Below, piece by piece: positions 33,260 to 59,299 of a stretch of DNA of 64,000 bases. The notes under the pieces were generated by a model. That model saw only the letters and a program-made list of their open reading frames with translations. It searched no databases and had not been told where the DNA came from. The translations under genes and the position numbers were made by a program. This DNA comes from Closterium sp. NIES-65 (taxonomy: Eukaryota; Streptophyta; Zygnematophyceae; Desmidiales; Closteriaceae). Where the stretch lies: assembly GCA_948144175.1 (NCBI GenBank), contig CANXME010002185.1, positions 310,001-374,000 of the forward strand, read 5' to 3'. The stretch's first letter is position 1; every line of letters starts with the position of its first letter.

Positions 33260-35657
33260 ATGGTTTCCCGCGCGTGCTCCACCGCGCCGCCGGGCCTGGC
33301 TCTCATTCGTCGCTTCCGGCCAAAGGATTTCTCTTTCGCGACGCACCAGATCTTCGTCCTTGTTCTCACCTTTATCGCATACGCGTTATATCACGCCTCG
33401 CGAAAGCCTCCCAGCATTGTCAAGGGCGTGCTCGACCCTCTCGATACAGGCAACTCCGTTACAAGCAATCCCTGGACTTTCTACCTCCAGCGGCTGGAAA
33501 GCCACCCAGAAAACTCTCTTCTGCGGGCAGAACAAAAAGCCGGATGGGCTCCTTTCAACGGTAAATCCGGGAAATCTCTTCTCGGGGAACTCGATATCGC
33601 GTTTCTGGGATGCTACGCGATCGGCATGTATATCGCTGGCCATGTTGGCGACCGAATCGACCTCCGCGTCTTCCTCTCCGTGGGGATGTTCGGCAGCGGC
33701 TTATTCGTATCCCTCTTCGGCATGGGGTATTTCTGGAATATACACTCGTTAAACTACTTCGCAGCGGTGCAAATGGCCGCAGGGTTCCTCCAGGCGACCG
33801 GCTGGCCGAGCGTCGTCGCGATTATGGCCAGCTGGTACGGAAAAAAAAGGCCGCGGGTTGATTCTTGGCGTGTGGAACGCACACACTTCCGTCGGCAACA
33901 TTCTCGGATCGCTCATCGCGTCGTCCGCGCTTGCAAGCGGATGGGGCTGGGCGTTTCTCATCCCCGGATTCAGTATCATGGCGGGAGCGCTGGTCATGTT
34001 TCTGTTTCTTGCGCCGGAACCGGAAACCATAGGGCTGGAGTCGCCGCATTCGTTGCTGCTGTCGGAGTCGTCTAGTGAGGCGGGCGGGAGCGTGCACGGG
34101 GAGGGGGACGAGGAGTCGGGGCTTGAAGCTGTCGAATGCGCTGACATGGCTGCTGACGTGGCGGCTGGTTTCGATGCTGCCCTATTAGCTCCGAAAGAGG
34201 CTGCTTATGCTTCAGTATCGGAGCAGCTTACGGTGCCGCTTTTACAGGGGAAGGATGATGCGGGGCCGGGAGCGGAGGGTCGGATTGTGATAACAGAGGA
34301 TGTGCTTAAAGCGGGAATGGAAGGGAGCGGCGGGGAGCACGAGGCGATCAGTTTCTGGGACGCATGTCAAATTCCTGGTGTTGCGGCGTACGCGTTATGC
34401 CTGTTCTTCGCTAAGCTTGTGGCGTACACGTTCCTGTACTGGCTCCCGTTCTACATCAAGCGCACAGGTGAGACGAATACCGCCTACAGACTCCCGTACG
34501 AGAAGCACTGAAATGTACTCCGTCAAAAGGAAAAATGTGGAACAAACTTGTAACTATGCACCGACGCGTGTTCGGGCGAATGGACAGTTTTTGACTTTGT
34601 GGGGGGAGGGGAAGGAGGGAGGGGGGGTGGGTGCTGGGGAGGATAGTAGCGGGGCATCTTTCCGACCACACAGATATCTTGCTCCCTTTCTCACTTCTCC
34701 CTCCCCTTCCTCGCTCTCTCCCCACCTTCCCAAGCAGAGATAGCGGGCCATCATCTGACTGACGCGTTTGCTGGAGTAACGTCGACAGTCTTCGATTTAG
34801 GGGGGGTGCTGGGGGGGATAGTGGCAGGCCATCTTTCCGACCATACGGGCGCCCACGCCACCGTGTCCGCTTCCTTCATGCTCCTAGCTGTCCCCGCTCT
34901 CCTCCTCTACTCCTTTCTGGGCGGAATTTCCCTCTCTGTGCACATAGGGCTGCTTTCACTGGTGGGATTCTTTGTGAATGGGCCCTACGCGCTTATCACT
35001 TGTGCCGTGTCCGCTGATCTGGGGCAGCACGCGTCGCTCCGAGGGAATTCCAAGGGGTTGGCTACGGTTACTGCGATCATTGATGGTACGGGCTCGCTAG
35101 GGGCTGCTCTGGGTCCGTTTCTAACGGGGATAGTGGCAGAGATTGGGGGAGGAGGCGGGGGGAAGGGAGCAGGAGACCTGGGGTGGAGGCTGGTGTTTGG
35201 AATGCTTATTTCGGCTGCACTGGCTGCAGTGTTGTGCATACTGCGGTTAGTTATTGGCGAGTTTAAAGCAGCAGCAGAAACCTCAGCAGCGTTAGACGCC
35301 TTCTTAGAGGCCGAGAGGCAGCAGCAGGAGCAGGGAAGAGAAGGAGAGCAAGGGAGGGGCAGTGGAGTGCCAGCGGGGGAGCAGCTGGGAGGAGAGAGGG
35401 GCGAACAAACGGGGGAGCAGAGGGGGACACAACGCGTTACGAAGTGCAAGAGCAGGAGGGTGTGGCACCACTGGTGGCGGAAGGGAGGAGGATACTGCTC
35501 CACGTGCTGCTGCTGCTGTGTGGTTGCCCGCTGTTGCAGCTGCCCTCCCCCTGCCAAGGTTCATAGTCACCACCATCAACACCACCCAGATCAGCCGCAG
35601 CAGCAGCAGCAAGAGCAGCAGCACCAGCAAGAGCAGCAGCAGCAGCAACACCACTAG
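33260..35657 (+). CDS. Glycerol-3-phosphate transporter-like MFS protein
   Basis: Two exons, 33260-34467 and 34738-35657, joined by a GT-AG intron in the middle of a Glu codon. The product resembles plant putative glycerol-3-phosphate transporters (SLC37/OPA branch of the major facilitator superfamily), membrane antiporters of organic phosphates. N-terminal half: [20 protein letters not shown], then the MFS loop [10 protein letters not shown] and [21 protein letters not shown]-terminal half: [60 protein letters not shown] hydrophilic insert of about 100 residues (34040-34340) and a Gln/His/Glu-rich tail of about 100 residues make it near 708 residues, longer than the roughly 500 usual in plants. 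The reading frame shifts by one at the run of eight A at 33841-33848. Seven A would give [20 protein letters not shown], the family sequence, so an assembly/sequencing error or a recent lesion is likely. Whether it transports glycerol-3-phosphate itself is unknown. Confidence 0.88.
34468..34737 (+). other. Transporter intron with partial exon copy
   Basis: 270-nt intron, donor ACAG|GTGAGA, acceptor CCCAAGCAG|AGATAG. Inside it, about 34629-34672 resembles the coding stretch 34804-34848 (GGTGCTGGGGAGGATAGTAG versus GGTGCTGGGGGGGATAGTGG, then CATCTTTCCGACCA in both). It is thus a diverged copy of part of the next exon. Confidence 0.8.
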
Positions 35658-36232
35658 CAGCAGGAAAGGGGAGAGGGGGGGGGGAGTGGGGTCAACAGGG
35701 TAATGAGCTCAGTGCAAGAGCAGGAGGGTGTGACAACCACTGGTGGCGGAAGGGCGGAGGATACTGCTCCACGTGCTGCTGCTGCTGTGTGGTTGCTCGG
35801 TGCTGCAGCTGCCCTCCACCTGCCAAGGTGCACAGTCACCACCACCAACACCACCCACAGGAGCCGCAGCAGCAGCAGCAAGAACAGCAAGAGCAGCAGC
35901 AGCAGCAGCAACACTAGCAGCAGCAGGAAGGGGGAGGGGGAGGGTAGCAGGGACAGGACAATTAGCTCAGTGCAAGGGCAGGTGGTTGTATTGATGGCAC
36001 CACTAGTGGTGGAAGGGCGGAGGTTACTGCTCCACATGCTGCTGCTGCTGTGTGGTTGCCAGGTGCTGCAACTGCCCTCCACCTGCCAAGTTACCCTGCT
36101 ACCATCACCAACATCACGCACAGCAGCCACAGCCCCAGCAGCAAGAGTAGCAGCAAGAACAGCAGCAGCAGGAGCAGCAGCATCAGCAAGAGGAGAAACA
36201 ACAGGAGCAGCAGCGGCAGAGCTAAGATGTAA
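35444..36232. repeat. Triplicated 260-bp segment at transporter 3' end
   Basis: Three tandem copies beginning at about 35444, 35712 and 35970 (GTGCAAGAGCAGGAGGG, then GGAGGATACTGCTCCACGTG, a CTGCTG run, CTGCCCTCC and a CAGCAG run). The spacing is 268 and 258 bp. The first copy encodes the C-terminal tail and stop of the transporter. The other two are downstream and leave open frames that I do not regard as genes. Confidence 0.87.
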
Positions 36233-37089: not shown

Positions 37090-37715
37090 CAGCTGCAGCA
37101 CTACACCTCTCTTCCTCCCACTGTAAGCGCGGCCACTGTCGAGTTTCAAACCCGGCTTCACGTCAAGGATCCGGTCTACATCCACAGTCGCAGGTAGTCA
37201 CCTACCCCCCCATTTTCAGCCCGTACCAGCAGCAGCAGCAGCAGGGGCAGCATCGGCAGTTGTGAAGTGCACTACACCAGCCTCCCTCCCAGTCTAGGCG
37301 CAGCCACACTGGTGAGGTCCAGATCAGGCTTCACGTCGTGAATCCTGTCTACATCCACCGTTGCAGGGGTCATTGGTAGGAACCTCTGAGGCGCTACAAA
37401 AATCGACCCTCCTCCGCTGCTACACCAGTCTGCCTCCCAGTCTAGGCGCAGCCACACTGGTGAGGTCCAGATCAGGCTTCACGTCGTGAATCCTGTCTAC
37501 ATCCACCGTTGCAGGGGTCATTGGTAGGAACCTCTGAGGCGCTACAAAAATCGACCCTCCTCCGCTGCTACACCAGTCTGCCTCCCAGTCTAGGCGCAGC
37601 CACACTGGTGAGGTCCAGATCAGGCTTCACGTCGTGGATTCGATCCACATCCACCGTTGCAGGAGTCATCGGTAAGAACCTCTGAGGCGCCACAAATATC
37701 GACCCTCCTCCCCCA
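37090..37715 (-). repeat. 148-bp tandem copies of the PSI-like C-terminus
   Basis: Three units of 148 bp, starting at about 37271, 37419 and 37567. Each carries, on the minus strand, RFLPMTPATVDVDRIHDVKP, DLDLTSVA and a TAG. The rightmost unit ends the gene model. The two to its left are almost identical to each other. A shorter diverged copy (TVDVDRILDVKPGLKLDS) lies at about 37125-37195. Confidence 0.9.
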
Positions 37716-39906
37716 GTGCTGCTGCTGCCCGCAGCACCACCACCCACTGCTTCCTCCGCCTCCATTCGCCTCAGCAGGCTGTATCTGCTTAGGGACTTTG
37801 TGAAGAACCGAGGGTTAGGCTCGGGCCGAGCCGCCATGGCAAACGTGTGGCTCCTGCTTCGGCCGTACGTGGCTTCTCGCATTGCCTCCATCATCTCTTC
37901 CGAAGCTGCGCCTCGGGCCGCCGGACCAAAGCCCTGGCTCATGGTCATTGCTGCTAGCAGCGCTTCGCCCGCCAACGGCGGCCCCGAGCCTGCTGCCGAG
38001 CCTGGCAGCTTGCCTCGGTCGAGCGGGCTTCCAAAATCTCCGGCGGCGTCCACAGGGCGTTTCCCAGCATTACCCCCCATGCGAAGGGCGTTTTCTAAAC
38101 TCTTCCGGCTGGTGCCCATGCCACTAGCTAGCGCCCTACGAGCAGCGGCAGCAGGAGATTCGGCATTCTCTGCTGTGGAAGCAGAAGTACCAGCAGCGCC
38201 AGCAGCAGCAGCGGTGGCAGCAGCGACAGCTGGGATAAGCTTTCCACTGCTGCTAGAAGGACGACTCCCACCACCTCCTCCAGCCTTAGACGCCAGAGGA
38301 GCCAACAAATCGTCCTTCTCTTTCTTATGCAGCTCCTCCTCTTCCTCCTCTCCTTCCTCTCGCTCTCCCTTCTCCCCCTCTCCCTCCTCTTCTCCCTCGC
38401 CCTCTCCCTCCTCCCCTTCCATCACCTCCACCTCAGGTACCGGCTCCAGGGATACTTCAGTAAGAGACGCCTGCCGGACCTGCCGCCACACCGGAGGCTC
38501 GGCCGAGCCTGCCGCATCCACCGCACCAGCTTCAAGCCCAGCCGATCGAGGCCGACCGGTTTCCCCACCGCCCAACCCCTCTGCTGCGGCAGAATCCGAG
38601 GCCCCTTCTTCTGCGCGTGCCTTCTCCTCCTCCTCCATTGCTGCAATGCGCCGGGGGAGGGTTTCCCAATCGCCCACCGTTGGGACGCTCTCTGAGAGGC
38701 TGCGACGGGCGCGGGAGAGAGATATGGGCGGCACAACTGCCAACTCTGCTTCCTTGCCTCCCCCTCCTCCTGCTGCTCCTCCTGCTGCTTCTCCTGCTGC
38801 TGCAGAAGCTCCTTCAGCTGCCCCCTGTGACTCCACAGAAGTGGACTTAGGCAACGGGAACCGGAAATCCTCTGGAATAGACGCAACTGCCTCATCAGAC
38901 CCAGCCGAAAGAGCAGCAGCAGGAGCACCGTCTGACTCTGCAAGAGCAGTACCAACGGCAACAGCACCCGCGCTGGCAGAGGCTGTTACTACAGCAGTTA
39001 TTTTCTCTTCCATCTCTCCAGTCTTCTCCCCATTAGCACGTACCACCATTCCCTCTAATTCACCCGCAGCAGCAGCCGTTTCAGCAGGAATATCATCACC
39101 AGCAGCACCAGCAGAACCAGCAGCGGCAGCAGCAGAAGAGCCGCCACGATCAGGAGACATGACCCTAGGGGAATACACCGGTGCAAGCACGGCCCCGCGG
39201 GGAACAGGGCTCCAGTCATTGTCCGCGCTGCGGCTGGCGAGGTGCTGAAGCCCCACGAGCAGCAGCAGCACGAGGCGTTCCATCTTGAGATGATCCACAT
39301 GCTGCAGCGTCTGTAGGAGCGTTAGGTCCGTGTGCCCCTGCACCCTGCTGTCTAGCCCGAACCTGGGTGGGGGGAAAGAGTGAAGAGGGAGAATGAGAGC
39401 AAGGGAGATGGCAGGAGGAGAACTGGGAAAGAACGTGATGGGGAGCTGAAGCAGCGTCTGCAGGAGCGTCAGGTCCGTGTGCCCCTGCACTGCACCCTGC
39501 TGTCTAGCCCGAACCTGGGTGAGGAATGAGGAAGGTGGAAGGGAGAGATAAGAGAATGAGAGAAGGAGTTGGCAGGGGGAGGATACAGAACAAGGTGACG
39601 GGGAGCTGAAGCAGCGTCTGCAGGAGCGTCAGGTCCGTGTGCCCCTGCACTGCACCCTGCTGTCTAGCCCGAACCTGGGAATGGGGATAGGCGGAACGAG
39701 GGAGGAAAAGGACAAAAACGGGAGGTGGTGGTTGGGAGGGTATGTGGGTGGCTGGGTGGGTGGGTTGACGGGGGTTGGAAGCAGAAGGGGTGCTACAGCC
39801 GAAGCAGCAGCGCTTCTTGTGCATGGGAAGCAGGGGAAACAGGGGCAGCAGGGGCAGGAGAGGTAGCGGAGGGGAGGGAGCGGCGGGTAGATGGTGCAAG
39901 CGCACG

Positions 39907-39937
<31 letters not shown>

Positions 39938-42900
39938 GCAGCAGAAATCTCAAGACGCAATGATCAAATTATCCATTCACGGAATGAGAACTCCAGAATA
40001 AGCATACCAAATGGTGTTGTCTCCTCCAAGACAAGTTCACCAGGCAGCCTCCAGTCCAGCACCGCCTCCATCTGCTGCTGCAAGCTGAGCAGCCTGTCTC
40101 TCTTTACAAGGCATGGCATGAACTGCAGGCTTTTGAGACGTCTCAAGAGCTGAGCAGCCTGTCTCTCTTTACAAGGCATGGCATGAACTGCAGGCTCGCT
40201 GTGGTCGAAACTCTTCCATTTCTTGTACGAGGCGTGAACCCAGTCATTCAAAGTGAACGCAGAGAGAAAAGTTGAGCAACGGTGTACAGAATGGTGCTTA
40301 GCTGAACGAACCGAATTGTGTTCTCTGCCATGGTAACCAGCCAGTCCAGCACCGCCTCCATCTTCTGCTGCAAGCCGCCTTGCTTTCTTTGTTATTCTGA
40401 AGTGACTTTAGTTTTGAGTCGACTCAAAAGTCACCTCTGTGTCGAGCACCTACGTACCGAATTGTGTTCTCTGCCATGGTAACCAGCCAGTCCAGCACCG
40501 CCTCCATCTTCTGCCGAATGCTCTCCGTGCTCTCCTGCAGAAAGGGGGTTGGCATGGCATGTGTGCGTGAGTATGTGTTACATGTGTGCACAGTGCGGGT
40601 ATGTGTGTGGGCGCGTACAACCAGCCAATCCAGAACCGCCTCCATCTTCTGCCGAATGCTCTCCGTGCTCTCCTGCATGGAGAGAGCGGGAATGTGTGTG
40701 GGGGGGTGGAGAGGGGGGGATGGGATGTGTGTACAAGTCAGTCCCTACACGACCAGCCAGCCAGTCCAGCACCGCTTCCATCTTTTGCCGGATGCTCTCC
40801 GTGCTCTCCTGTGGGGAAAGGGGGTTGGAATGAGTGAGTACGTGCCGAATGAGTATGCGTGTGTGTGTGGGCGCGTACAAGTGTGTATTAGTCTAATACA
40901 AGTGTGCAAGATTATTTCTGAAGCGACCAGCCCTTCAGTCCAGCACCGCTTCCATCTTCTGCAGGATGCTCTCCGCGCTCTCCTGGAGAGGCGAGTGGGA
41001 GGGAGGAAAGGTTGAGGGGCGGAGTAGTTTCTCTAAGCTTGTGAATGCATGTGTAAGTATGGACGGTTCATCTTATCGACCAGACCAGTCCTGCACCGCT
41101 TCCAGCTTCTGCCGGATGCTCTCCGCGCTCTCCTGCAGAGGAGGTAAGAAGGAAGGTGGGGCAGCATGTGCGCGTGTGAGAGTTTGTGATGGGGTGTGTA
41201 TGGGTAACCTTGTTATCGAAAAGTCCAGCACCGCCCCCAGCTTCTGCCGGATGCTCTCCGCGCTCTCCTGGAGAGGGAGAGGAGGGAAGGGGGTGTGCAG
41301 CTGAATGGATGTGTGTAATGTGTGTGGTGGTCAAGTCATTGCAGATACGACCAGCACAGTCCAGCACCGCCGTCAATACACCACACCACACCACACCACG
41401 CCGAACCGCACCACATCTCACCACACCACACCCCACCCCACCGTACTGCACCCACCTGCTCTATGTCTTGTGACTGAGGCAGCGTGCGTTTCAACCGACC
41501 ACACTGACAGAAGCAGGCAGAGCAGTGAAGGCATGGCGACCCCTCGATACCACACTACACCACATCACATCACACCGCACCGAACCGCACCACAACACAC
41601 TGCACCACACCAAACCGCATCATACATAGCACACCCCACCCACCTGCTCTATGTCTTGGCGACTGCAGCAGCATGCGCTTTAACCAGCCATAGACAGAAG
41701 CAGGCAGAGCAGAGAAAGCATGGTGACCCATGGTTACCACACCACACCGCATGGCACCGCACTGCACCCCACCCCACCCACCTGCTCTATGTCTTGCGAC
41801 TGGAGCAGCGTGCGTTTCAACCGCCCACAGACAGAAGCAGGAAGAGCAGAGAAAAGCGCCTCCCTCTGAGTCTCCACGCATGCTGGGCGCATCACCTGAA
41901 GGGAAAAAGAAAGGGAGCACGCAAGAGGAGAGGGAAACCATGACATAGGGAACACTTTTGAGGCGCCTCAAAAGACATAGGGAACATTGGCTGGGCTGGG
42001 GAGGATGAGCACACAGACAGTAGCAGGTAGAGCAGAGAAAAGCGCCTCCCTCTGAGTCTCCACACATGCTGGGCGCATCACCTGGTAGCAGGGAGAGAGA
42101 AAGAAAAAGAAAGAGCAGGCGAGGATGAAGACACAGAGGAGGATGAGCCTCCGTCTGAGTCTCCACACACGCTGGGCGCATCACCTGATGATAGGGAGGG
42201 GGCGGGGATAGGAAGTAGAGGGGAGGGATGAGATCAAGGCCCATGGGCTTACACACACCAGCCACACAATCGGCCAGAAGGGTCACCTTGGAAAAAAATA
42301 AGTGAAATGGAAAGGTACGGGAGAGAAAAGGGTAGGGTAGGCATACCATTGTGTTGATCATGTTCACAATGTTGGTGTATTGCAGCGCCATGCCGTTCAC
42401 TCCGAGCTCATTACTCATTGCTACCACCCGCAAGAAGGGAAATGAGAGCAGCACATAACGCGGCGCCGCAGATCAGGAAGGGAAAGCGAATGGGAGATGT
42501 ACCATGGTGTCAATCATGCTGACAATGTTGACGTACTGCAGCGCCATGCCGTTCACCCCACCCACCCACACACACGGTGTACTAGCAGGCTCACCAGGTC
42601 CCACCAGCACCAAGGAGAAGGGAGAGAGAGCAACACATATCATACCATGGTGTCAATCATGTTGACTGTGTTGGCGTACTGCAGCGCCATGCTAGCAAGC
42701 AATGCCAGCGTACCATCATGGCATGGGGAAGGAAGAGAGAGAGCATCGCATACCATCGTGCCGATCATGTTGACAATGTTGGCGTACTGCAGCGCCATGC
42801 CGTTCACTCCGAGCAGATTGCGGAGTGTTACTACCAGCATGAAGGGAAAGAGGGAGCAACACATACCATGGCGCCATTGATCATGAAGGGGAAGGGAGCG

Positions 42901-45900
42901 AGAGTAACACATAACTCACCATGGTGTCGATCATATTGACAATGTTGGCGTACTGCAGCGCCATGCCGTTCACTCCGAGCTGATTGCTACCACCAGCCAA
43001 GGGAAAAGGAGAGCCGCACATACCAAAGAGAGCAGCACATAACTCACCATGGTGTCAATCATGTTGACAATGTTGGCGTACTGCAGCGCCATGCCGTTCA
43101 CTCCGAACAGATTGCGGAGTGTTACTACCAGCATGAAGGGAAAGAGGGAGCAGCATATACCATGGCGCCATTGATCATGAAGGGGAAGGGAGCGAGAGTA
43201 ACACATAACTCACCATGGTGTCGATCATGTTGACAATGTTGGCGTACTGCAGCGCCATGCCGTTCACTCCGAGCTTCCTCAGATCAGCAGCCGAGGGCGG
43301 CGTGCCGGACATGAGGCGCCCCACCTTCACCACTGCAGGGGGCAAGGGGAAGGAGGAGACATAGTGGGGTTGGATAGATAAGAAGGAAGAGGGGTGCATG
43401 GGCAGCATGGATGGGGCAGGCAGATCCGGGGAGGCGTGCCCGGCATGAGGCGCCCCACCTTCACCACTGCAGTGGCTGGGGGAAGGGGGAAGCTTCGAGT
43501 CGACTCAAAAGGGGAAGGGGGAAAAGGTGGGGTTGGATTAGGGTTGAGCAAAAAAACGAACACCTGCACGTTCGAGGCGAACTGAACAGGTATTTTTTTT
43601 TGGCTTAAAATGTTCGCCGAACAGTGTTCGATGTTCGCCCGAACACGTTCGTGTTCGGGCCGCTGCTGCAATTTGCCCGCGACGAACACGAACAGTGTTC
43701 GAGGTTCGCCCGAACACGCCTTCACAGGCGAACGGCGAACACCATTTTTTGCTCAAAGTGTTCGCCGAACCGAACAGTGTTCGGTTCGGCAAACGAAGGT
43801 GTTCGTGTAGGGGCGAACACGAACACGTTCGTGTTCGCCACTTAGGATAGATACGCCGGGAAAACGGTGCATGAGCGGCATGGATGGGAGGCGGATCAGC
43901 AGCTGTGGGAGGCGTGCCGGACATGAGGTGACCCACCTTCAACACTGTAGGGGGAAAGGGGAAGGAGGAAGGGTGTATGAGCGGCATGGATGGGAGGCAT
44001 GCCGGACATGAGGCGCCCTTCACCACAGAAATCGGTGGGTGAGATTACGATGCAGGTAAGGGTAGAAATGGAGGGGAGGGGGTACAAAGAAAGGAGATGG
44101 GATGGGTAGAGAGGAGGGGGAAATGAGCAGAAGATGGGCTTGCTTCCTCAAATCAACAGCTCATCGGGTGAATGTATGGAAGCAGCAATGACCTTTCTGC
44201 ACTCACCATCGACCCCAAACACGTCTACGATCTGGTCGTGCAGGAATACGACCACTAGAATCACTCAGTTGTGGCAGGCACGTGGCAGCACAAGGCATGT
44301 ACACGGAAACACTCACCATCGGCCCCAAACACGTCCACAATCTGGTCGTGCAGGAATATGACCACCTGAACTAGCTTCTCCACCACCTGCCGTTCAGCGC
44401 AGACAGGTAAGCAGGCAGGCAGGCAGGCAGGCAGTGCAGACAGGTAAGCAAGTAGGCAGTGCAGACAGGTAAGCAAGCAGGCAGTGCAGACAGGTAAGCA
44501 GGTAGGCAGGCAGTGCAGACAGGTAAGCAAGCAGGCAGTGCAGACAGGTAAGCAAGCAGGCAGTGCAAACAAAGGGGTTTTGGAGGAGAGGACCAAGGTA
44601 CCAAAGTGGTGACCACCTGTAGCGCAGTGCAGTGCAGAAAGGTAGGCAGGCACTCACACCAGCTCACCTCACTTGCACTCCCTCACACCACACCAACGCA
44701 CCTCGTCCATGGTTTTGGACCAGAGCCCTTTCTTCTTCATCGTTTTCACTACCTTCATAGCAACAAGTATCACCCATACAGGATGCACGAGCTCACACCA
44801 GCTCACACCAGCTCACACCAGCTCACACCAGCTCACACCAGCTCACACCAGCTCACACCAGCTCACACCAGCTCACACGCACGCACACCAGCTCACACCA
44901 GCTCACACCAGCTCACACGCACGCACACCAGCTCACACCAGCTCACACGCACGCACACGAACTCACACGCACGCACACCAGCTCACACCAGCTCACACCA
45001 GCTCACACGCACGCACACCAGCTCACACCAGCTCACACCAGCTCACACGCACACGAACTCACACGCACGCACACCAGCTCACACCAGCTCACACCAGCTC
45101 ACACGCACGCACACGAACTCACTCCACCTCACACCAGCTCACACCAGCTCACACCAGCAGACCAGCCCACCTCATCCATGGTCTTCGACCAAAGCCCTTT
45201 CTTCTTCATCGTCTTCACTATCTTCTCCTGTGCCTTCATCTCTGCCCGCATCTGCGCTATCAGCTCTGCAAGAAAGGGGTGGGTTGGGTTCGGTTGGGAA
45301 GAGTTGGGATTGATTGGGTTGGGTTGGAATGGGTTTGGTGGGTTGCAATGCGATGGGATGGGAATGGAGGGTGAGAAGGGGCCACCTTCACTATCTTCTC
45401 CTGTACCTTCATCTCGGCCCGCATCTGCGCTATCAGCTCTGCAGGGACGGGGTGGGTTGAGTTCGGTTGGGACAGGTTGGGACAGGTTGGGTAAGTTGCA
45501 GTGCGATGGGAATGGAAGGTGAGAGTGTGCCACCTTCACTATTTCCACCTGCGCTTTCATCTCTGCTCTGCTTGCATCTGCTACCAGCCCTTCACCTCTG
45601 TGGGGAACCAATTGACTTTTGAGTCAACTCAAAAGACACCTCTGCTCGCATCTGCTGCCAGCCCTTCACCTCTGTGGGGAACCAATTGACTTTTGAGTCA
45701 ACTCAAAAGACACCTCTGCTCGCATCTCCTGCCAGCCCATCACCTCTGTGGGGAACCAATTGACTTTTGAGTCAACTCAAAAGACACCTCTGCTCGCATC
45801 TCCTGCCAGCCCATCACCTCTGTGTGGAACCAATTTGGAATGGAAAACAAGGGAAGCAGCAGCATACCTCTGTTGACTGCAGAGTCCGAGTCCTGCTTCA

Positions 45901-48900
45901 CCCGTCTGTCCAGTGACTGCTGCAGCACTCCCTCTTCATGTTAAACAATGCCACCATTCCACCCACCCACCCACCACACACTCACCTCTGTTGACTGCAG
46001 AGACCGAGTCCTGCTTCACCCGTCTGTCCAGTAATTGCTGTAACTACTGCTCCAAACCTGCCAACTCCTTGTGTTCAGAAGTCAAGACCAAGGCAGTAAC
46101 TCCCTTCTGTGCGTGAAAACATGGGAAGCAGCAGCATACCTCTGTTGACAGCGGAATCCGAGTCCTGCTTCATCCGTCTGTCCAACGACTGCTGCAGCAC
46201 TCCCTCCTTGGTTCGTGTTCGTGCTAAGCAACGCCAACGTCCCACCACCGGCCCACCCGTCCCACCACACACTCACCTCTGTTTACAGCGGAGTCGGAGT
46301 CCTGCTTCACCCGTCTGTCCAACGACTGCTGCAGCTGCTCCAGATTCGCCAACTCGTGGTACAGCTCCTGGTGGGGTGGAAGGGGGAAAAGACAAGAGTA
46401 TTGGGGTGGGGGAGAACAGGGGGGAAGAGGGGAATGTGAATAACCGCAACACCTGCTGCAGCTGCTCCAGATTGGCCAACTCGTGGTACAGCTCCTGGTG
46501 GGGGAAAAGGGGGGGGGGAGGAGGAGGGGAAGGAGGAGGACAGGGGGGAGAAAGAGATACGTGAATCACCACAGAGACTGCTGCAGCTGCTCCGGATTGG
46601 CCAACTCGTGGTACAGCTCCTGGTGGGGGAAAAGGGGGGGGAGGAGGAGGAGGGGAAGGAGGAGGACAGGGGGGAGAAAGAGATACGTGAATCACCACAG
46701 AGACTGCTGCAGCTGCTCCGGATTGGTCAACTCGGGGTACAGCTCGTGATGGGGGGAATGGGGGGGGGAGGAGGATGGGGGGGAGAGGATGGGGGGTTGG
46801 CCAACTCATGGCACAATACGCTGCTATGGAGGTTGCAACCCATGGCCCCCGAAAGTCAACACAGTATCCACCCACCCACTCACCGTTGTGATCTGCGCCT
46901 GCCCCTCCAGCGCCCGCAGCTCCCCCTCCCCCTCTGCTGCGATGCAAGTTGCATTGCAACCCATGGCCCCCAAGAGTCAACACAGAACCCACCCACTCAC
47001 CGCTGTGATCTGCGCCTGCCCCTCCAGCGCCCGCAGCTCCCCCTCCACCTCCCCCCCCTCCACTTCTCCCTCAGCCTCAACCTTTGATGCTATGCAAGCC
47101 GCTGGAGACTCCACACCACTCACCGCTGTGATCTGCGCCTGCCCTTCCAAAGCTCGCAGCTCCCCCTCCACCTCCACTGATGTCATTCGGCCCTTGGGTC
47201 CATCCATGGTGCCGAGACTGGTGGGGGGAGCAAGGAAGAGAAGAGAGGAAGAGAGGAGTTGGGAAAAAAGGGGGGGGGGGGGGGGGGGGAGACAGGGACA
47301 CAGGAGAGGGGGATTGAAGGAGAAAGGGAGAAAGTAGCCGAGTGGCAGGGTCAAGGCTTATGCTGATGTCATTCGGCCCTTGGGGCCATCTATGGTGCCA
47401 AGGCTGGTGAGGGGGAGAGCGAGAAGAGAGGGGGCAAGGGGGTAAGCAGCGCAGGTAAGGCGGGCTCGTGCGCTCCGACTTTTGATTCGACTCAAAAGTT
47501 GGCGAGGCTGGTGAGGGGGAGAGCGAGAAGAGAGGGGGCAAGGGGGTAAGCAGCGCAGGTAAGGCGGGCTCGTGCGCTCCGACTTTTGAGTCGACTCAAA
47601 AGTTGGCGAGGCTGGTGAGGGGGAGAGCGAGAAGAGAGGGGGCAAGGGGGTAAGCAGCGCAGGTAAGGCGGGCTCGTGCGCTCCGACTTTTGAGTCGACT
47701 CAAAAGTCACTTTTGAGTCGACTCAAAAGTTGGCGAGGCTGGTGAGGGGGAGAGCGAGAAGAGAGAGGGGGCAAGGGGGTAAGCAAGCAGCGCAGGTAAG
47801 GTGGGCTCGTGCGCTCTGCTGATGCCATTCGGCCCTTGGGGCCGTCCATGGTGCCGCCGAGACAGGTGGAGGGGAGAAATTGAAGGAGAGAAAGAAAAGA
47901 ATTGGAGAGAGGGGGTAGGAAGGAAATGGATCATGTAGGCATGGGGCGGATTCATGGCTTCCGCTGATGTCATTCGGCCTTTGGGACCGTCCGTGGTGCC
48001 GAGGCTGGTGGGGGCAAAGGGGGGGGTGTGGTTGGAGTTGACAGAGAAAGCGAGTGAGGGGTCAAGGAGCAGGGTCGTGGATTTGCTGGTATCATTCGGC
48101 CCTTACGTCCATCCATGGTGCCGAGGCTGGTGGGGAGGAGGAGTCATGACTTCTGCTGGCGACGATCCCAACGTTAAGGCCCAACGGAAGGAAGTCACAC
48201 TTTTCGGTGCCGAAATTCACACCTGGACTGGAACGCAGGTGCGTGTGGACCTCCAAGCACCATCTCTGCTCTGCATCCATGGCTGTTGTCTTGTCAATTG
48301 AGAGACCAAGGGACCCGTGATTGCCTGAGCGTAGGTCAAACAGCCACTGTATGAAGAAGTGTTTTGAGACGTCTCAAAACACTTCTTCATACACGAGATT
48401 GCCTGAGCATAGGTCAAACGGCCACCGCCCCACTCACGCACACATCAAACCCCATCCTTCACTAGTCGAGCCCCCATCGCTCAAGTGACAGATGTGCATA
48501 ACACCCCACTCACGCACACATCAAACCCCATCCTTCACTAGTCAAGCCCCCATCGCTCAAGTGACAGATGCGCATAACAGCCCACTCACGCGTCGAAGGC
48601 CTGTGTGAGCGAATGCAATGCCGGGTCCAGACATTGCTTGCCCAGCCGTGCCACATCCCTCGCCACTGCTCTCAACTCGCCCCTGTGTGCAGTGCAGTGC
48701 ATGAGATGACGGAGGGAGAAGTGTGAGGAACAGAGGAAAGATGGTGGAGGGAGGAAGAAAGACGGGTCAAGTCAAGACATTGCTTGCCCAGCCGTGCCAC
48801 ATCCCTCGCCACTGCTCTCAACTCGCCCCTGTGTGCGTGAGAAAAGACGGTGGGGAGGGGAGGGGGAAGGGAGAAGAGTGAGGAACAGGAAACAGGGCAG

Positions 48901-51900
48901 AAAAGGTGAAGAGGAGGAAAAGCAAGGACGCCAGCCAGTTCCGAATCCCTGAAGCTCGTCAAAGCAGATCAAGGCTTTTCAAAACCTTCATGTACAGTAC
49001 AGCAATCAGTCTTCATGTGTTGTGCTGTGCTGTGTGAAGTCAGCAGCACCACCGGTCCCTGATGATCTCATGATCTCTAATAATGCCATCCACCTGCCCA
49101 CAAACCTGGTCTTTCTCTCCCACGCACGCACCGCTTGTCCTCGGCAGCAATGCACCAGCATCCTTATGCCCTCCCACGCCACCACCTCCGCCCTCAGACC
49201 CTCTATGTCCCTCTCCCACACTCACCGGCCCTACCACCCGTCCCAGCCCCACCCATCCTAGCCCTACCACCCGTCCCAGACCCACCACCTGTGTCCCACG
49301 CACCGCTTGTCCTCGGCAGCAATGCACCAGGCGTGGTACAAGTCGTCTGACACCAGCATCCTTATGCCCTCCGATGCCAGCACCTCCGCCCGCAGGTCCT
49401 CTATATCCCGCTCCCGCACTCACCGGCCCTACCACCCATCCCAGCCAAACCACCCGTGTGCCACGCACCGACCGGCCCTACCATCCGGCCCGGCCCTACC
49501 ACCCGTCCCACCCTCTCCCACGCACCGCTTGTCCTCGGCAGCGATGCACCACACGTGGTAGAAGTCGTCTGACACCAGCATCCTTATGCCCTCCGATGCC
49601 AGCAACTCCGCCCGCAAGTCCTCTATAGCCCGCTCCCATACTCACCACACCAGCCCTATCATCACCTGTCCCAGCCTGTCCTCACCGCTTGTCCTCGGCA
49701 GCAATGCACCACACGTGGTAGAAATCATCCGAGACCAGCATCCTTATGCCCTCCGATGCCAGCACCTCCGCCCGAAGGTCCTCTATATCCCGCTCTAGCA
49801 GCGACTGGCGCAGGTTGATTGCCCTGACGATCACGTTTGCCACTTCAAACCCCATGATCTCAATTCTGAGACCAAGGAGGGGAAACGGGGAAGGGAAGCC
49901 GAGGGGGGAAGGGGAAGGGGGGGAGAGAGGGGAGGAGGGGGAGGAGAATGCGATTGAACACTTGGTACTCATTTTCCTTCGCGTGAATGAATGTCTTAGA
50001 ACGAGGGTGGGGTTGGGGGGGGGGACAACGGGGTGAGGTGCTTCAGAAGCATGCTACTTATGGAACCTGCACGGACCTGCACGGACCTGCACGGACCTGC
50101 ATGTACCTGCACGGACCTGCACGGACCTGCATGTACCTGCACGGACCTGCACGGACCTGCACGGACTGAACCTCTGCCACTCACTTTCCCTTGGAGCGGA
50201 TGAGCTTTGGGCCAACAGGGGTGGTCGCCTCCTCTGCTGCAGGCGCTTCCCTGCTAGTCAAAAGCAGGGACATGCCAAAAGAACAGAATGGGGAAAAGAG
50301 AGGGGCAGAGGAGACAAGACAGCAGAGAGCGTTTTGGCATCTTTGGGCCCAGTTCCGGGGCTAGGGCTTAATCAAAGGGCAAGCTGGATCCAAACCTGAA
50401 CACCGAAGTCTATTTTTGAGGCGCCTCATAAATAGACCCTGTTCCGAGGCTAAGACTTAATCAAAGGGCAAACTGGATCCAGCATGCGTGCATTTTTGAG
50501 GCGCCTCAAAAGGCATCCGACTTTTGAGACGCCTCAAGAAACGAATTTTGTTTAAGGCGCCTCAAAAGGCATCTGTAGCGTTGAGCTTTCGGCCCCGTCT
50601 CTGGGCTTAGGTTTATTCAAAGGGCAAACTGGCTCCGACTCAAAACACCAAAGTGCATGCATGCATGCATTTTAGAGACTAAGATCATGGTCTGGTCGAA
50701 TGAAGGATAAATGCAGGTTTGGCGACTCAGGATCATGCGGTGCAGTGCGGTTCAAACAGCTTTTGCGGCTCTTCACAAGAGGCCGGTTGTGCCTGGTCGC
50801 ATGAATGAAGATACGCGCAGTGTGTAAGTTTAGCGACTCACCCTCGCGTGGGTGACGCAGTTGGTGCGGCAGCAGCGCCTGCTGGTGAGGCTGAGGATTG
50901 TGAGGACTGTTTGGGGGGGGAAAGGGCAACGGAGGAGAGGAGAGGAGAGGAGAGGAGAGGACTGCTGGTGAGGGCAGAGAAGCAGTGGGTGGAACGATGA
51001 AAGAAAATATAGAATGGCGGAGTCACAAAACTAGTCCCTGCTGCTGGTGTGGCTGAGAATTGCGAAGACTGCTTTGAGGATGGAGGGGGCATCAGAGAAT
51101 AAATAACGGCGTTTGGAGACGTCAGAAAACTAGCGCCTGCTGGTGAAGCCGAGGATTGAGTTGAGAGGACTGTTTGAAAGGGGACAGCGGACAGAAGGGC
51201 AACATACAGACAGACACAGAGGGAACGGAGTCACTGACGCATTGAATTAGGCAAACAGGGGCCACAGTGAAACTAGAAGTGACATTGGTGGAAAGGCGAC
51301 AGCCGTGTGTCGGTGTGACAACAGCTTAAATGTCTGACCCCGCAGCAGCAGAACCGGAGAGAAAAACGAATACAGGAGGCGGGGTGGGGGTTGGGGGGCT
51401 GGGAAGAGGGGAAGAGGGGGGGGAGGGCAGGGGGAGGATGGGGAGAAAACGGGGGAAAGGACAAGGGGGGAGAGGGAGGGACTGGGGAGGCGGGGTGGGC
51501 GGGAGGGGTCCTCAATGTCTTGATGTCAGTACAAAATCGCTGTGAGATTGCGAGTAGCAACAGCTGAAGTGCCAAAAAAGAAGAAAAAAAAGGGTAGTTA
51601 CTCCTACGCTAATAGTACAACTCTAACTCCATAATTTCTCGTACGACCTACGCTACTAGTACTACTCTACTCCATAATATCTCGACAATAGTACCTTGAA
51701 TCCGCGGACGCCCCCCGTTGGCAAACAGTGGATGCCCGTCGCTTCCCGCGGCGACGACTCCACGCCTTTGTCGTCGCCGTTGTCCGTGCTGTCGCCCTGG
51801 TCATCCCTGCGACGGCTTTTACTGAAAAGCGACGGCAGGCGACCCGAAGCCGATTTCCCAGCTGTCGCATCGTCAACGCTGCGACCCGACGCTACCTTGG

Positions 51901-54047: not shown

Positions 54048-54178
54048 TGAGAAAATGAGAACGAGAATGGATGAACTATGAATGAAGTGAGTACAAGTAC
54101 TAACCCTAATTGGGTTGTACCCCTTGTAGGCTACCCCACTATAGCCTACACAATATGCAAAAGCTATATGTTCTGACA
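54048..54178 (-). repeat. H 3' LTR
   Basis: 131 bp, TGAGAAAATGAGAACG...TATGTTCTGACA on plus. It is followed by the CACCCCCATAGG purine-tract complement shared by all the short-LTR elements here. Confidence 0.93.
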
Positions 54179-54325
54179 CACCCCCATAGGCAAAGTGGGG
54201 GAGAACAAGGGGTCACAAGACCAGTCAAGCAAAGCAAAGCAAAGCAAGCTCAGGGTGGATCACAAAGTCACCACACAGTCCGAGCACAAGGTCAAGGCCA
54301 CAAGGCCAGTTCACATGCAGGGGTA

Positions 54326-54368
<43 letters not shown>

Positions 54369-54419
54369 CTAAACAAGCAAGAGCAGGTATATATACATAT
54401 GCAAGAGTACAAGCAAGGT

Positions 54420-55935
54420 CAAGAGGTGAGCAAGTGAGGCAAGACCGGGACAAGTCCCAGCTGAGTGCAGAAGCGCTGATGATCACAAGGCGCAAGTGCC
54501 TTGGTGAAAACATCAGCACTGTTGGCCTCAGAGGCTACGTATGCAAGTCGCAACTGACCACACTGCTGCAGCTCATGAGCAAGAAAGTAGCAGAGAGCAA
54601 TGTGCTTTGTTCTGTGCTCCAGGCGCTGCTTTCGACACAAGGCCAGCATGGCCTTGTTGTCTACGTACAACACTCGAGGAGAACGAGGCGACTCTCCAAG
54701 GTCGCTCAGCAGGTAGGTGAGCCAGCGAAGCTCCTGTGCAGCCATGGCCCCTGCGTAGATCTCAGCCTCACAACTGGAGCCGAGAACAGAGGACGAGCGA
54801 GTAGCCCGCCACGAAACAGAGCCGGAACCAAGACTGAAGGTGTAACCCTCGGACGACCGCTGAGTAGCCTGGTCGTCAGCCCAAGAAGCGTCCGCGTGCC
54901 CAGTGGGGACCACTGGACTCCGCCCTCCAAGCACTAGCCCCATGCCCGAAGTACTGCACAAGTAGCGCAACACCCTCTTCGCTGCAGCCATGTTCTCTGG
55001 TCTGTGTCTCCCAGGAGCAACATAGCGTGCAAGAATACTAAGAGGGTATGCAAGGTCAGGTCGTGTGCAGGTCATCAGGTACATGAGGCAGCCAACAAGC
55101 TCTGGGTACGGGCCACTCGACTCTACGGACTCATCCGAAGGCAGAGCTGAGAGCGAGTGGCGAGTAGACAGAGGAGTGGCCTAAGGCGAGGAGTACGTGA
55201 AGCCGAAGCGCTGAAGGACCTGCTGCACCATGTGTGACTAAGTCAAGGTAATGGTGCGGTGTGCTCTGTCCCGGGTGATCTGCAAGCCAAGGTAGCTGCG
55301 CAGTTCACCCAGGTCTGTGCACGTGAGTCTCTTCTGCAGCTCCGACTTCACGTAGGCGAGTCCAGCAGTGTCAGCTGTGGCAAAGACCAAGTCGTCGAAG
55401 TACACGAGGATGTAGAACGGCGGCAGAGAGGTGTCGGTGCGCAGGAACAACGACGGGTCAGCAGTAGAGGGAGCAAACCCAAGAGCCACAAGCGTAGTCC
55501 TCAGTGTGTCGTGCCACTCACGTGGTGCCTGGCGAAGACCGTAGACTGGCCGTCGGAGGCTCCACTGGGTGCCAGGAGGGAAAGTCCCAGTGAAGCCAGG
55601 TGGACGGCGCAGCCAGATCTCCTCGTGCAGGCTACCCTGCAAGAAAGCAGTGCTGAAGTCAAGAGAGTGAAGCTCGTAGTCGCGCTGAGCGGCTATGTGC
55701 AGTAGCACCCGAAGAGTGGTCATCTTCGAGGTGGGAGAGAAGGTCTGAAAGTAGTCAACTCCCTGCCGCTGACTGAAACCACGAGCGACGTACCGCGCCT
55801 TGAAGACAAGTGGAGAGCCCGGCGGCCGCTTCACCCTGAAGATCCACATGCCACTGACGATGTTCGCCCCAGGAGGGGGAACCGCGTCAACGTAGGTGCC
55901 TGTGGACTTCCAGAAAGCCATCTCTGCATCCATAG
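54420..55935 (-). other. H RT and RNase H
   Basis: RNase H motifs GHADASWADDQATQ, CEAEIYAGAMAAQEL and VDNKAMLALC lie at about 54480-54900. RT motifs FKARYVARGFSQRQG and DFSTAFLQGSLHEE lie at about 55600-55830, and the YxDD box reads YFDDLVFA near 55390. Close to C, E and B in sequence. Confidence 0.9.
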
Positions 55936-56989
55936 CTGCCTGCCACTGAGAGGAGTAGGGACCCTCTACGGCCTCCGCGTAAGAGCGCGGAGTCGGGATG
56001 TCTAGTGCATCCGGGTCTCCCTCAGGGGTAAGCAGTACGGACGCGAGATGAGGTGAAGCAGCAGCCAGACACTGGAACTCCTCGTGCCTGTCCTCAAGGA
56101 CGTCCGTGCCAAGAGCACACTCACCCCCGACGGACGGAGGACAGACAGACGCAGACCCAGCAACAAGGCAAGCAGCGTAGTCTAGACGACAGCGAGCAGC
56201 AAAGTCGACGAGCTAGGCAACAAGAGCAGACGCAGCAGTGGAATCAAAAGAGGGGTCAGTGACGAGAGTAGCAAGGAGACGCATGAGAGTAGGACTGGCA
56301 GCATGAAGAGTGTCCGACTCCAGGTCGGCCAGCGCAGGGAGAGAGGACTCAGGAGGAGAAGGCAAAGGGGCATGCAGAGGAGCAGTGGACGGACGCAGAG
56401 ACATCCGGTGCGTGCCAGGGACAGGAGGAGGACGGTGACGGGAACCGCGACCACTAGCACGAGCAGCACGAACAGGCGACGCGGGACGAGACGCAGGCTC
56501 ACGACGCTCAGCAAGACCTCCAGTAGGACCAGTGTAAGGAGAGGGAGCAGGCAGAGGGGAGGCGGGCTCTAACTGTGACTGAGACAGGACAGGCGGTGGA
56601 CACTCTACAGGAGGAGAAAGACCAAGAACCTGCTGTAGGAGCGGAACGAAGTACGGCCGAGGCCGCGCGGTAACTCTAGACACAGCAGGGACAGCACCAG
56701 CACCCTCAGCGGCAGCACCAGCGCCAACAGCACCTCCACTCCAGCAGCACCCGCAGCAGGACCACCGCCAAGACGGACAGCAGTAGTCTCAGCACCAACA
56801 CCCTCAGCAGCTCTAGCTCCAGTCGGACCCGCAGGCTCAGCAGCTCCGGGACTGGCGGCACCAGCACCCTCAGCGGCCGAAGAAGCTCCAGCTCCAGCAG
56901 TACGGCTCTAGCGGCGAGTAAACCACTCGCGCAGCTCCTCTGGAGAGAGGGGCTCCCGCCGAGACAAAGCACCCGGAGAACCTCCAGAC

Positions 56990-57270
56990 TCAGCACCGCC
57001 AGACGCCACAAGGGGAGGTCTAGCGATCGCAGGCTCCGCACCTCTAGGCTCACCAGCTCCAGACGCAGCACCCCCTGGCTCAGCACTCCCAGGCTCAGCA
57101 CCCCCAGGCTCAGCACCCCCAGGCTCAGCACCCCCAGTCGCAGTACCCCCAGGCTGAGCACCCCCAGTCGCAGCACCCCCAGACTCAGCACCCCCAGGCT
57201 CAGCTCCCACGCGCGCAGCACCCCCAAAGTCAGCACCCCCAGGCTCAGCACCCGCAGCAGTACCTGAGTC
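56990..57270 (-). repeat. GGAEP-type linker repeat in H
   Basis: 15-bp-based units (CCCAGGCTCAGCACC on plus) coding GGAEPGGAEPGGAEP with variants, between integrase and RT. Confidence 0.87.
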
Positions 57271-57299
57271 ACCAGCAACCTCGACCGGCTCGACTGCGT

Positions 57300-59280
57300 C
57301 TACCTGGGACACACCTGAAGGGGCAGGACCCTGAGGGGGAAGGGGGTCTACCGGGGGGGGACCTGGCACGAGGAAGTGCGGTGGCGGGGGGAGGGAAGCA
57401 GTGCGGTAGGGGAAGAGGCGGTAGAAGGGGACTGACTCGTCGAAAGTGACGTCCTGGGAGGACAGAACACGACGAGAGGTGGGGTGGTAGAACTGCCACC
57501 CTGGTGCGTCAGGGGGGAAGCCAAGGAAGACACAGGGAGCAGCACGGGGGGACAGCTTGTCCGCAGACAAGTCGCGGACAAACGCCCGAGATCCCCAGAC
57601 ACGGAACGCAGACGCATCGCCGACCTTCCCAGTCCACAGCACAGCCGAGGAGGTACGGACCTTCCCCGGCCGGGAAACCCTGGGGTGAAGGTTGATCTGA
57701 TGCGCCGCGTACCGAACCGCAAACGGCCACAGAAAATGGGGGGAAGCCGCATGCATCATGGACGTACGAGCGACGTCCATGACCATGCCAATGCGGCGCT
57801 CAGCAAACCCATTTTGCTGCGGAGAATCCAGAAGCGTAAAGGTCTGGCGGATGCCCCGTGCAAGACAGTACGCTCGCAGAAGGCTAGAGGAGAACTCTCC
57901 GCCTCGGTCAGAGTGCAGATGCAGAACAGGAAAGTCCGAGCCGAAGCTCCTCCTGAGCTGGAGACGAGCTGCGCGGATCCAGTCGATCAACACCTCAGTG
58001 ACATCACCCTTGCTGCGCAAGGGGAAGACTGTGGTGTAATGCGAGTAGTCGTCAACCACCAGCAGGAAGTAGCGCTCGTGACCCTGTCCACGGACGCGGG
58101 CCGGGCCCCACACGTCCATGTGAAGCGTCTGCAGGGGAGCCTCTGTCGGAGGAAACTAAGAGAAGTGGGGGGCAGCCCGGAGGTGCCCCTCGACACAAGG
58201 GACACAGGAAGGTCCTGGCCCCGAAGGAAGGGGAGGGAGAGACCGGGGAAGACCAGAGACAAGGACACGTGAAGCCAAGGAAGACACAGGGAGCAGCACG
58301 AGGGGACAGCTTGTCCGCAGACAAGTCGCGGACAAACGCCCGAGATCCCCAGACACGGAACGCAGACGCATCGCCGACCTTTCCCATCCACAGTAGAGCT
58401 GGGGAGGTCTCCGGCCGGGAGACCGTGGGGTGAAGGTTGATCTGATGCGCCGCGTACCGAACCGCAAACGGCCACAGAAAATGGGGGGCAGCCGCATGCA
58501 TCATGGACGTACGAGCGACGTCCATGACCATGCCAATGCGGCGCTCAGCAATCCCATTTTGCTGTGGAGAGTCCGGAAGCGTGAAGGTCTGGCGGATACC
58601 TCGCGCACGACAGTAGGCTCGCAGAAGGCCAGAGGAGAACTCTCCGCCTCGGTCAGAGTGCAGATGCAGAACAGGAAAGTCTGAGCCGAAGCTCCTCCTG
58701 AGCTGGAGACGAGCTGCGCGGATCCAGTCGATCAACACTGCAGTGACATCACCCTTGCTGCGCAAGGGGAAGACTGTGGTGTAACGCGAGTAGTCGTCAA
58801 CCACCAGCAGGAAGTAGCGCTCGTGACCCTGTCCACGGACGCGGGCCGGGCCCCACACGTCCAAGTGAAGCGTCTGCAGCGGGGCCTCTATCGGGGGAAA
58901 CTGAGAGGAGTGAGGGGCAGCCCGGAGCCGCCCCTCGACACAGGGAACACAGGAAGGACCAGGCCCTGGAGGAAGGGGAGGGAGGGTCCGGGGGAGACCA
59001 GAGACAAGGACACGGGAGGCCATGCCCCGAAGACGAGGCAGGGAGGGGTGACCAAGACGGTGGTGCCATAGGAGAGTGTCGTGAGACAGGAGGCGGCACG
59101 AGCAGGGGGCAGACTCAGGACCAAACCTGGACGCAGCAGCAAACACCTGACGCGACGCAGCTACCTGGATAGACGTAGAGACAGGAAGAGACGCAGTGGT
59201 CAGGGTGTAGAGACTCGACCCCGGCCTGCGTGAAAACGTGGCCAGGTGTCGGCCTGTGCGGGCATCCGAGCAGTGGGTCA
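57300..59280 (-). other. H integrase region, duplicated
   Basis: Two tandem integrase-like segments, each with DVWGPARVRGQGHERYF, DYS.YTTVFPL, LHSDRGGEFSS and ERRIGMVMDVA. They are about 0.75 kb apart and very similar. The right-hand one is preceded by the GAG-pre-integrase segment (HHRLGHPSLPRL, CVPCVEG). Similarity suggests a duplication after insertion or during reverse transcription. Confidence 0.85.
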
Positions 59281-59299
59281 CCGGCTGACTCGCAGGAGT

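Follow-up and report, generated by a model that had tools for sequence, protein, structure and literature searches.

Why should nearly every exon of a gene be accompanied by fragments of itself in the adjoining introns? The question is raised by a PSI-like gene in a stretch of 64,000 nucleotides from Closterium sp. NIES-65 (contig CANXME010002185.1, positions 310,001 to 374,000), which was analyzed at its full length and is called the window here. Its introns hold 44 partial exon copies, which we call echoes. These copies are local, direct, and partly arranged head to tail, and nearly all of them touch one coding edge. We consider it likely that repeated small tandem duplications, falling roughly at random in the gene and filtered by selection, have enlarged the introns, and that the echoes are the debris of this process.

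The PSI-like gene was rebuilt on the minus strand, from 52006 to 37568, as 13 exons separated by 12 GT-AG introns; its open frame has 1058 codons, the last of them the stop, and encodes 1057 amino acids. The exons measure 65 to 180 bp except for the first and the last, and the introns measure 319 to 1372 bp. Within the first 536 amino acids of the protein, Pfam places DUF3475 (E value, 2.4e-16) followed by DUF668 (E value, 4.5e-18), an order that we take to be the arrangement of PSI1-type (PSK simulator, PSI) proteins. The window as a whole is eukaryotic, plant-type DNA, and the DUF668 family is described as plant-specific in PMC6969926. The exons lie as follows.

52006-51695, 50906-50842, 50253-50185, and 49865-49686, minus strand: exons 1 to 4
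48682-48590, 47217-47124, 46367-46277, and 45265-45171, minus strand: exons 5 to 8
44386-44317, 43332-43214, 41895-41782, and 40534-40458, minus strand: exons 9 to 12
39362-37568, minus strand: exon 13

Echoes were collected by a BLAST search of each exon with its 40-bp flanks (for exon 13, its first 250 nucleotides) against positions 36.5 to 52.5 kb. Rows made up of intron or minisatellite only were removed, among them one inverted row caused by a palindrome in an intron flank, and two rows of a single exon 4 copy were joined as one echo. A preliminary description of this DNA had reported partial copies of exons 2 and 4 to 13, and it is from exactly these exons that the 44 echoes derive: two from exon 2, three from exon 4, one from exon 5, six each from exons 6 and 7, three from exon 8, one from exon 9, nine from exon 10, four from exon 11, seven from exon 12, and two from exon 13. 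The range is therefore one to nine copies per exon and not the one to seven given at first. Exons 1 and 3, for which no clear copy had been seen, gave no match covering exon sequence in this search either. On average, an echo is 88% identical to its own exon, and successive copies are spaced by 100 to 222 bp in 39 of 44 cases, with a median of 146 bp and outliers at 81, 289, 459, 469, and 478 bp.

That the copies arose by local duplication and not by transposition, as the same description had suggested, is supported by their orientation, distribution, and arrangement. All 45 matches with at least 20 nucleotides of exon (the 44 echoes and the unmerged row) are direct and none is inverted; neither the 48 kb of the window outside this region nor five shuffled copies of it produced an exon match. 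In 7 of the 12 introns, some copies can be aligned head to tail over more than one unit; the longest of these alignments are only 61 to 66% identical, with base composition contributing in part. The units of a few arrays are 97 to 100% identical to each other. Judging from these alignments, we take the head-to-tail arrays as probable tandem duplications of intron plus half exon. The echoes occupy the following positions.

51041-51198, minus strand: two acceptor-side echoes of exon 2, intron 1
49129-49635, minus strand: three donor-side echoes of exon 4, head to tail, intron 4
48771-48836, minus strand: one acceptor-side echo of exon 5, 98% identical over 66 bp
47363-48140, minus strand: four acceptor-side echoes of exon 6, intron 5
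46872-47052, minus strand: two donor-side echoes of exon 6, intron 6
46447-46763, minus strand: three acceptor-side echoes of exon 7, 126-bp head-to-tail array
45866-46198, minus strand: three donor-side echoes of exon 7, with closest relatives that differ between exon halves and flanks
45386-45594, minus strand: two acceptor-side echoes of exon 8
44656-44756, minus strand: one donor-side echo of exon 8
44200-44260, minus strand: one donor-side echo of exon 9
43429-44026, minus strand: three acceptor-side echoes of exon 10, intron 9
42345-43106, minus strand: six donor-side echoes of exon 10, intron 10
42009-42188, minus strand: two acceptor-side echoes of exon 11
41411-41717, minus strand: two donor-side echoes of exon 11
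40619-41297, minus strand: five acceptor-side echoes of exon 12
40051-40387, minus strand: two copies of exon 12 sequence 3' of the exon
39451-39715, minus strand: two acceptor-side echoes of exon 13

The copies keep an exon-intron edge, as had been noted before. An edge could be placed for 42 echoes (those at 49215-49129 and 40086-40051, for which none was placed, are excluded from the edge counts), and the splice dinucleotides are largely retained, AG in 21 of 24 acceptor-side copies and GT in all 18 donor-side copies. All 24 acceptor-side echoes lie 5' of their own exon and all 18 donor-side echoes lie 3' of it, so that an arrangement first remarked on for exons 6 and 7 extends to every placed echo. 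Echoes are found at 17 of the 24 splice edges, namely, at 9 of 12 acceptors and 8 of 12 donors. Acceptor-side copies stop 28 to 73 nucleotides inside the exon, and most donor-side copies begin 47 to 77 nucleotides before its end. None of the 44 echoes holds both splice edges of an exon; one of the 3' copies of exon 12 spans the exon but has lost the AG and carries a 1-nucleotide deletion.

The order of the halves follows from geometry and from the loss of frame-breaking copies. When a segment that runs from an intron into an exon is duplicated, it is the downstream copy alone that stays connected to the remainder of the exon, and hence the spare half lies 5'; a duplication across a donor leaves the spare half 3' of the exon. 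Any tandem duplication over one coding edge yields the order seen here, given that one intact exon must persist. We hypothesize that small tandem duplications, with spacings mostly of 100 to 222 bp, fall more or less randomly in the gene and that purifying selection would discard those that lie within an exon or hold a whole exon, because such duplications alter the messenger RNA and should be lost. The survivors would be those within an intron or over one edge, be it an acceptor, a donor, or the stop, and a half exon with a single splice site would probably be ignored by exon-defined splicing. The arrays may then expand, with exchange between exon halves making them partly uniform as the intron around them drifts, a step for which the support is mixed, and the echoes would be stratified, mostly neutral copies of earlier versions of each exon edge. 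Selection against broken proteins thus probably accounts for the placement of the echoes.

Whether random placement is enough depends on how long the introns were. We simulated random units with all 44 observed spacings on a gene with collapsed introns, from which the arrays had been subtracted (about 200 bp; median, 208.5 bp; one intron lifted to a floor of 80 bp). Such duplications cross exactly one edge in 62 to 63% of the tolerated cases. We observed 17 edge runs beside 5, 7, or 9 intron-only events, the latter counted by eye, and the resulting shares of 17/22, 17/24, and 17/26 compare with the random expectation at P values of 0.11, 0.26 to 0.27, and 0.46 to 0.47, respectively. On introns of the present lengths, the random edge-crossing share is 20%. 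Random placement suffices only for introns that started out short. Whole-exon events are expected to make up 0.20 to 0.24 of the random events that touch an edge, and none occurs in the 17 runs (P, 0.009 to 0.020).

These data also bear on a dedicated process that nucleates duplication at exon edges, for example, by breaks at R-loops or at splice-linked chromatin. Such a process would fit the presence of echoes at 17 of 24 splice edges and the distances at which the copies end inside an exon or begin before its end, and the edge share does exceed the random one if the ancestral introns were about 300 bp. However, it does not do so on the collapsed introns of about 200 bp, stop codons behave in the same way as splice edges (see below), and intron-only duplications occur as well. 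Nucleation at exon edges, one of the possibilities put forward in the preliminary description, is thus unnecessary if the introns were about 200 bp long, and the test turns against randomness at about 300 bp; all in all, we regard it as improbable.

The immediate intron flanks of the echoes are 0.60 to 0.63 identical to the real sequence and the exon halves 0.87 to 0.92. Neutral decay at a single uniform rate is rejected by simulation, in which exon halves at 0.86 to 0.96 go with a mean flank identity of 0.78 to 0.86. We favor an exchange between exon halves, which the working exon would hold to its own sequence. Six runs have three or more echoes, and among their 30 copies the nearest relative by exon half is also the nearest by flank in only 8. 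The disagreement is clearest in the donor run of exon 7, where the copies at 45986 and 45868 have exon-half changes in common, and by their flanks the former groups with the real exon and the latter with the copy at 46140. The five echoes on the acceptor side of exon 12 show a ladder of stepwise, shared changes that follows position toward the real exon, as expected if new copies are born beside it. Both echoes of exon 13 share one 5-nucleotide frameshifting insertion.

The same divergence speaks to the possibility that misassembled repeats produced the copies. A few arrays are nearly or fully identical between units, and a run of eight A residues breaks the frame of a neighboring transporter gene, as might be expected of a flawed assembly; however, misassembly would yield near-identical copies, and the echoes, at their average identity of 88% to the exon and with ladders of shared changes, count against it. 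We consider an artifact of this kind extremely unlikely.

Are the echoes translated or spliced? Differences between echo and exon fall at the three codon positions in 87/920, 92/923, and 165/922 sites. The polarity of changes was set by the other echoes, with a stricter filter that demanded that at least two others agree with the exon and a looser one that demanded at least one. The changes assigned to the echoes are distributed over the codon positions as 26, 25, and 26 (77 changes, stricter filter) or 31, 37, and 42 (110 changes, looser filter). Sites at which all echoes agree against the exon are synonymous by 15 to 1 (looser) or 4 to 1 (stricter), and such sites would be changes in the exon lineage or changes that preceded the first copy. 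The synonymous excess among unpolarised private changes (63 against 38 expected) is likewise put down to exon-lineage changes. Since the echo changes are blind to codon position and 10 of the 44 echoes are frameshifted, the echoes look untranslated. Constraint at the protein level was considered and is unsupported by the codon position of the changes.

Several observations weigh against the reading of the echoes as randomly placed, mostly neutral debris. With starting introns 1.5 times the assumed length, the random edge share drops to 0.45 to 0.46 and the observed share exceeds it (P, 0.002 to 0.035); the collapsed lengths are our own subtraction from the arrays themselves and are not an independent measure. 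Simple decay does not allow for exon halves this well conserved, and the exchange step is required for this reason. Mantel comparisons of exon half and flank gave positive correlations in three of the six runs, with r values of 0.84 (exon 6 acceptor), 0.61 (exon 10 donor), and 0.61 (exon 7 acceptor; P, 0.12), and values near zero or below it in the other three (0.02, −0.23, and −0.35); the flanks compared are short and of simple sequence. With results this mixed, the evidence for exchange is suggestive and not proven. No stop codon arises among the polarised changes of the echoes (P values of 0.0075, 0.035, and 0.076 under three filters), which also show a modest synonymous excess (P values of 0.0005, 0.01, and 0.045 under three filters), and an in-frame stop is present in only 1 of the 44 echoes. 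Finally, G at position +5 is kept in 17 of 18 donor copies, when most other intron positions from +3 onward match in about half.

Some of these observations would suit a functional role as splice decoys, in which half exons with a live acceptor or donor would capture splicing factors and so modulate whether an intron is retained or which exon is chosen, with selection acting on splice signals and exonic enhancers and not on the protein. Decoys could account for the retention of AG, GT, and the +5 G, for a pyrimidine content upstream of the echo acceptors of 0.84 against an intron background of 0.52, for exon halves that are better conserved than their flanks, and for the lack of stop codons among polarised changes. 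Against this, the echoes change at a rate of 0.058 per site, and the losses of AG (3 of 24) and GT (0 of 18) are about what decay at that rate predicts. A working splice site is constrained, so a past copy of it carries the same signals, and edges at stop codons, which have no splice site, have been copied as well. We therefore think it unlikely that the echoes serve as decoys.

The copies at stop codons are found in the PSI-like gene itself, where two of the three copies of its coding 3' end lie past the stop, and in the neighboring transporter gene, in which Pfam identifies MFS_1 in two open frames and of which one intron was identified.

37272-37711, minus strand: coding 3' end of the PSI-like gene including the stop codon, three copies with a period of 148 bp
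34560-34675, plus strand: echo of transporter exon 2, inside the 270-bp intron 34468-34737
35443-36194, plus strand: transporter 3' end (open frame to 35657), copied past the stop with a period of about 263

The echo of transporter exon 2 is 87% identical over 47 bp and scores 83, against a maximum of 45 in 300 shuffles; its own AG is not recognizable. The duplication process is limited neither to splice sites nor to one gene, and the initial impression of a single-gene effect has to be widened to include the intron echo and the copies past the stop of the transporter gene. The run of eight A residues in this gene, at 33834-33852, is either a homopolymer base-call error or a real frameshift.

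The introns contain a second recurrent element, the palindrome family TTTTGAG-NCGN-CTCAAAA. It has 12 exact matches, all in the introns of the PSI-like gene, and no match in the rest of the window. The central bases of CTTTTGAG-NCGN-CTCAAAAG differ between sites and are mostly still palindromic.

40131-40148: palindrome between perfect 49-bp direct repeats
40411, 41955, 45616, 45690, 45764, 47582, 47686, 47709, 48348, 50494, and 50522: other members of the family
43490 and 50408: imperfect relatives
47401-47707: array of 104-bp units carrying the palindrome, among the acceptor-side echoes of exon 6
45566-45835: array of 74-bp units carrying the palindrome, adjoining the acceptor-side echoes of exon 8

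An insertion of this palindrome, or a break at it, could leave a direct repeat that seeds an array and so drive the whole process. The confinement of the 12 matches to these introns within the window is in line with such a role, as are the direct repeats that abut palindromes (49/49, 13/13 twice, once at the imperfect 43490, and 29/32 bases) and the presence of the palindrome in each unit of the 74-bp and 104-bp arrays. However, most echo runs contain no palindrome, and no clear abutting direct repeat is seen at 40411, 47709, and 50494. Because of the arrays, random positions between 39.5 and 51.5 kb reach scores as well (90th percentile, 16.4; 95th percentile, 59.7; maximum, 98), and the two 13-bp repeats, at 11.0 and 12.5, fall under the 90th percentile. 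We accordingly give a driving palindrome little chance of being right. Its combination with decoys, such that half exons maintained at the RNA level set splicing efficiency and new ones are added by palindrome-seeded duplication, appears just as doubtful. As a lead, the palindromes look like filler at duplication junctions or very small insertions. The palindrome had no match in viral contigs, and its core was not found in the literature among the matches listed.

How does the locus compare with known systems? Tandem exon duplication, including that of mutually exclusive exons, also places extra exon-like sequence beside an exon, but no echo has both splice edges and echo changes ignore codon position. 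Introner elements are dispersed mobile copies in introns that carry splice signals; the echoes resemble them as repeated intronic sequence with splice signals and differ in being local within the window and each tied to its own exon. A further case is a potato gene (PMC4974935), in which one tandem duplication over an intron-exon boundary made a new spliced intron, as shown with RNA, and a second duplication of 83 bp lay within an intron. There, as here, a duplication over a boundary copied the acceptor together with the 5' portion of the exon. Unlike that single event, the echoes, present at 17 of 24 edges, do no more than extend introns that already exist, and the 13-exon coding model is open without any new intron. 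Small tandem duplications also arise when breaks with protruding ends are repaired, and such copies are reported from the genomes of humans and plants (PMC8355091, which cites a rice study by Vaughn and Bennetzen). The copies described here are likewise short, direct, head to tail, and local; however, the insertions described there are below 100 bp (PMC8355091), whereas 43 of our 44 spacings exceed 100 bp and the copies have been amplified repeatedly. Among the matches listed, the potato case is the only clear precedent for edge-crossing copies, and the precedents are single events. In the open-license literature, as judged from titles and abstracts, we came across no gene described as having echoes at the majority of its edges.

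By subtraction, the introns of this gene would have grown from a total of about 3.0 kb in the collapsed state to 11.3 kb at present. If the same holds genome-wide, small tandem duplications filtered by splicing would be a main route of intron growth, and the genome would keep an ordered record of past exon sequences beside its exons. Such a record would allow direct measurement of how fast, and by what mechanism, duplication and gene conversion proceed.

Local duplicates cover 29 to 99% of every kilobase across 39 to 50 kb. Many kilobases of retrotransposon sequence have none, and some kilobases elsewhere (for example, 25, 57, 58, and 61) are covered to 74 to 100%. Open frames of several copia-like retrotransposons and one gypsy-like retrotransposon, called from a reading of their translations without a family search, lie at 2010-31667 and 54110-60886 and fill much of the rest of the window. 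Rfam and transfer RNA scans of the window gave no matches. Two further repeats lie in the region of the PSI-like gene. A GTTCG-rich segment of intron 9 (43637-43839) has three long palindromes and is probably a separate small mobile element, and a 10-bp minisatellite of about 38 copies (44786-45158) begins near the donor of exon 8.

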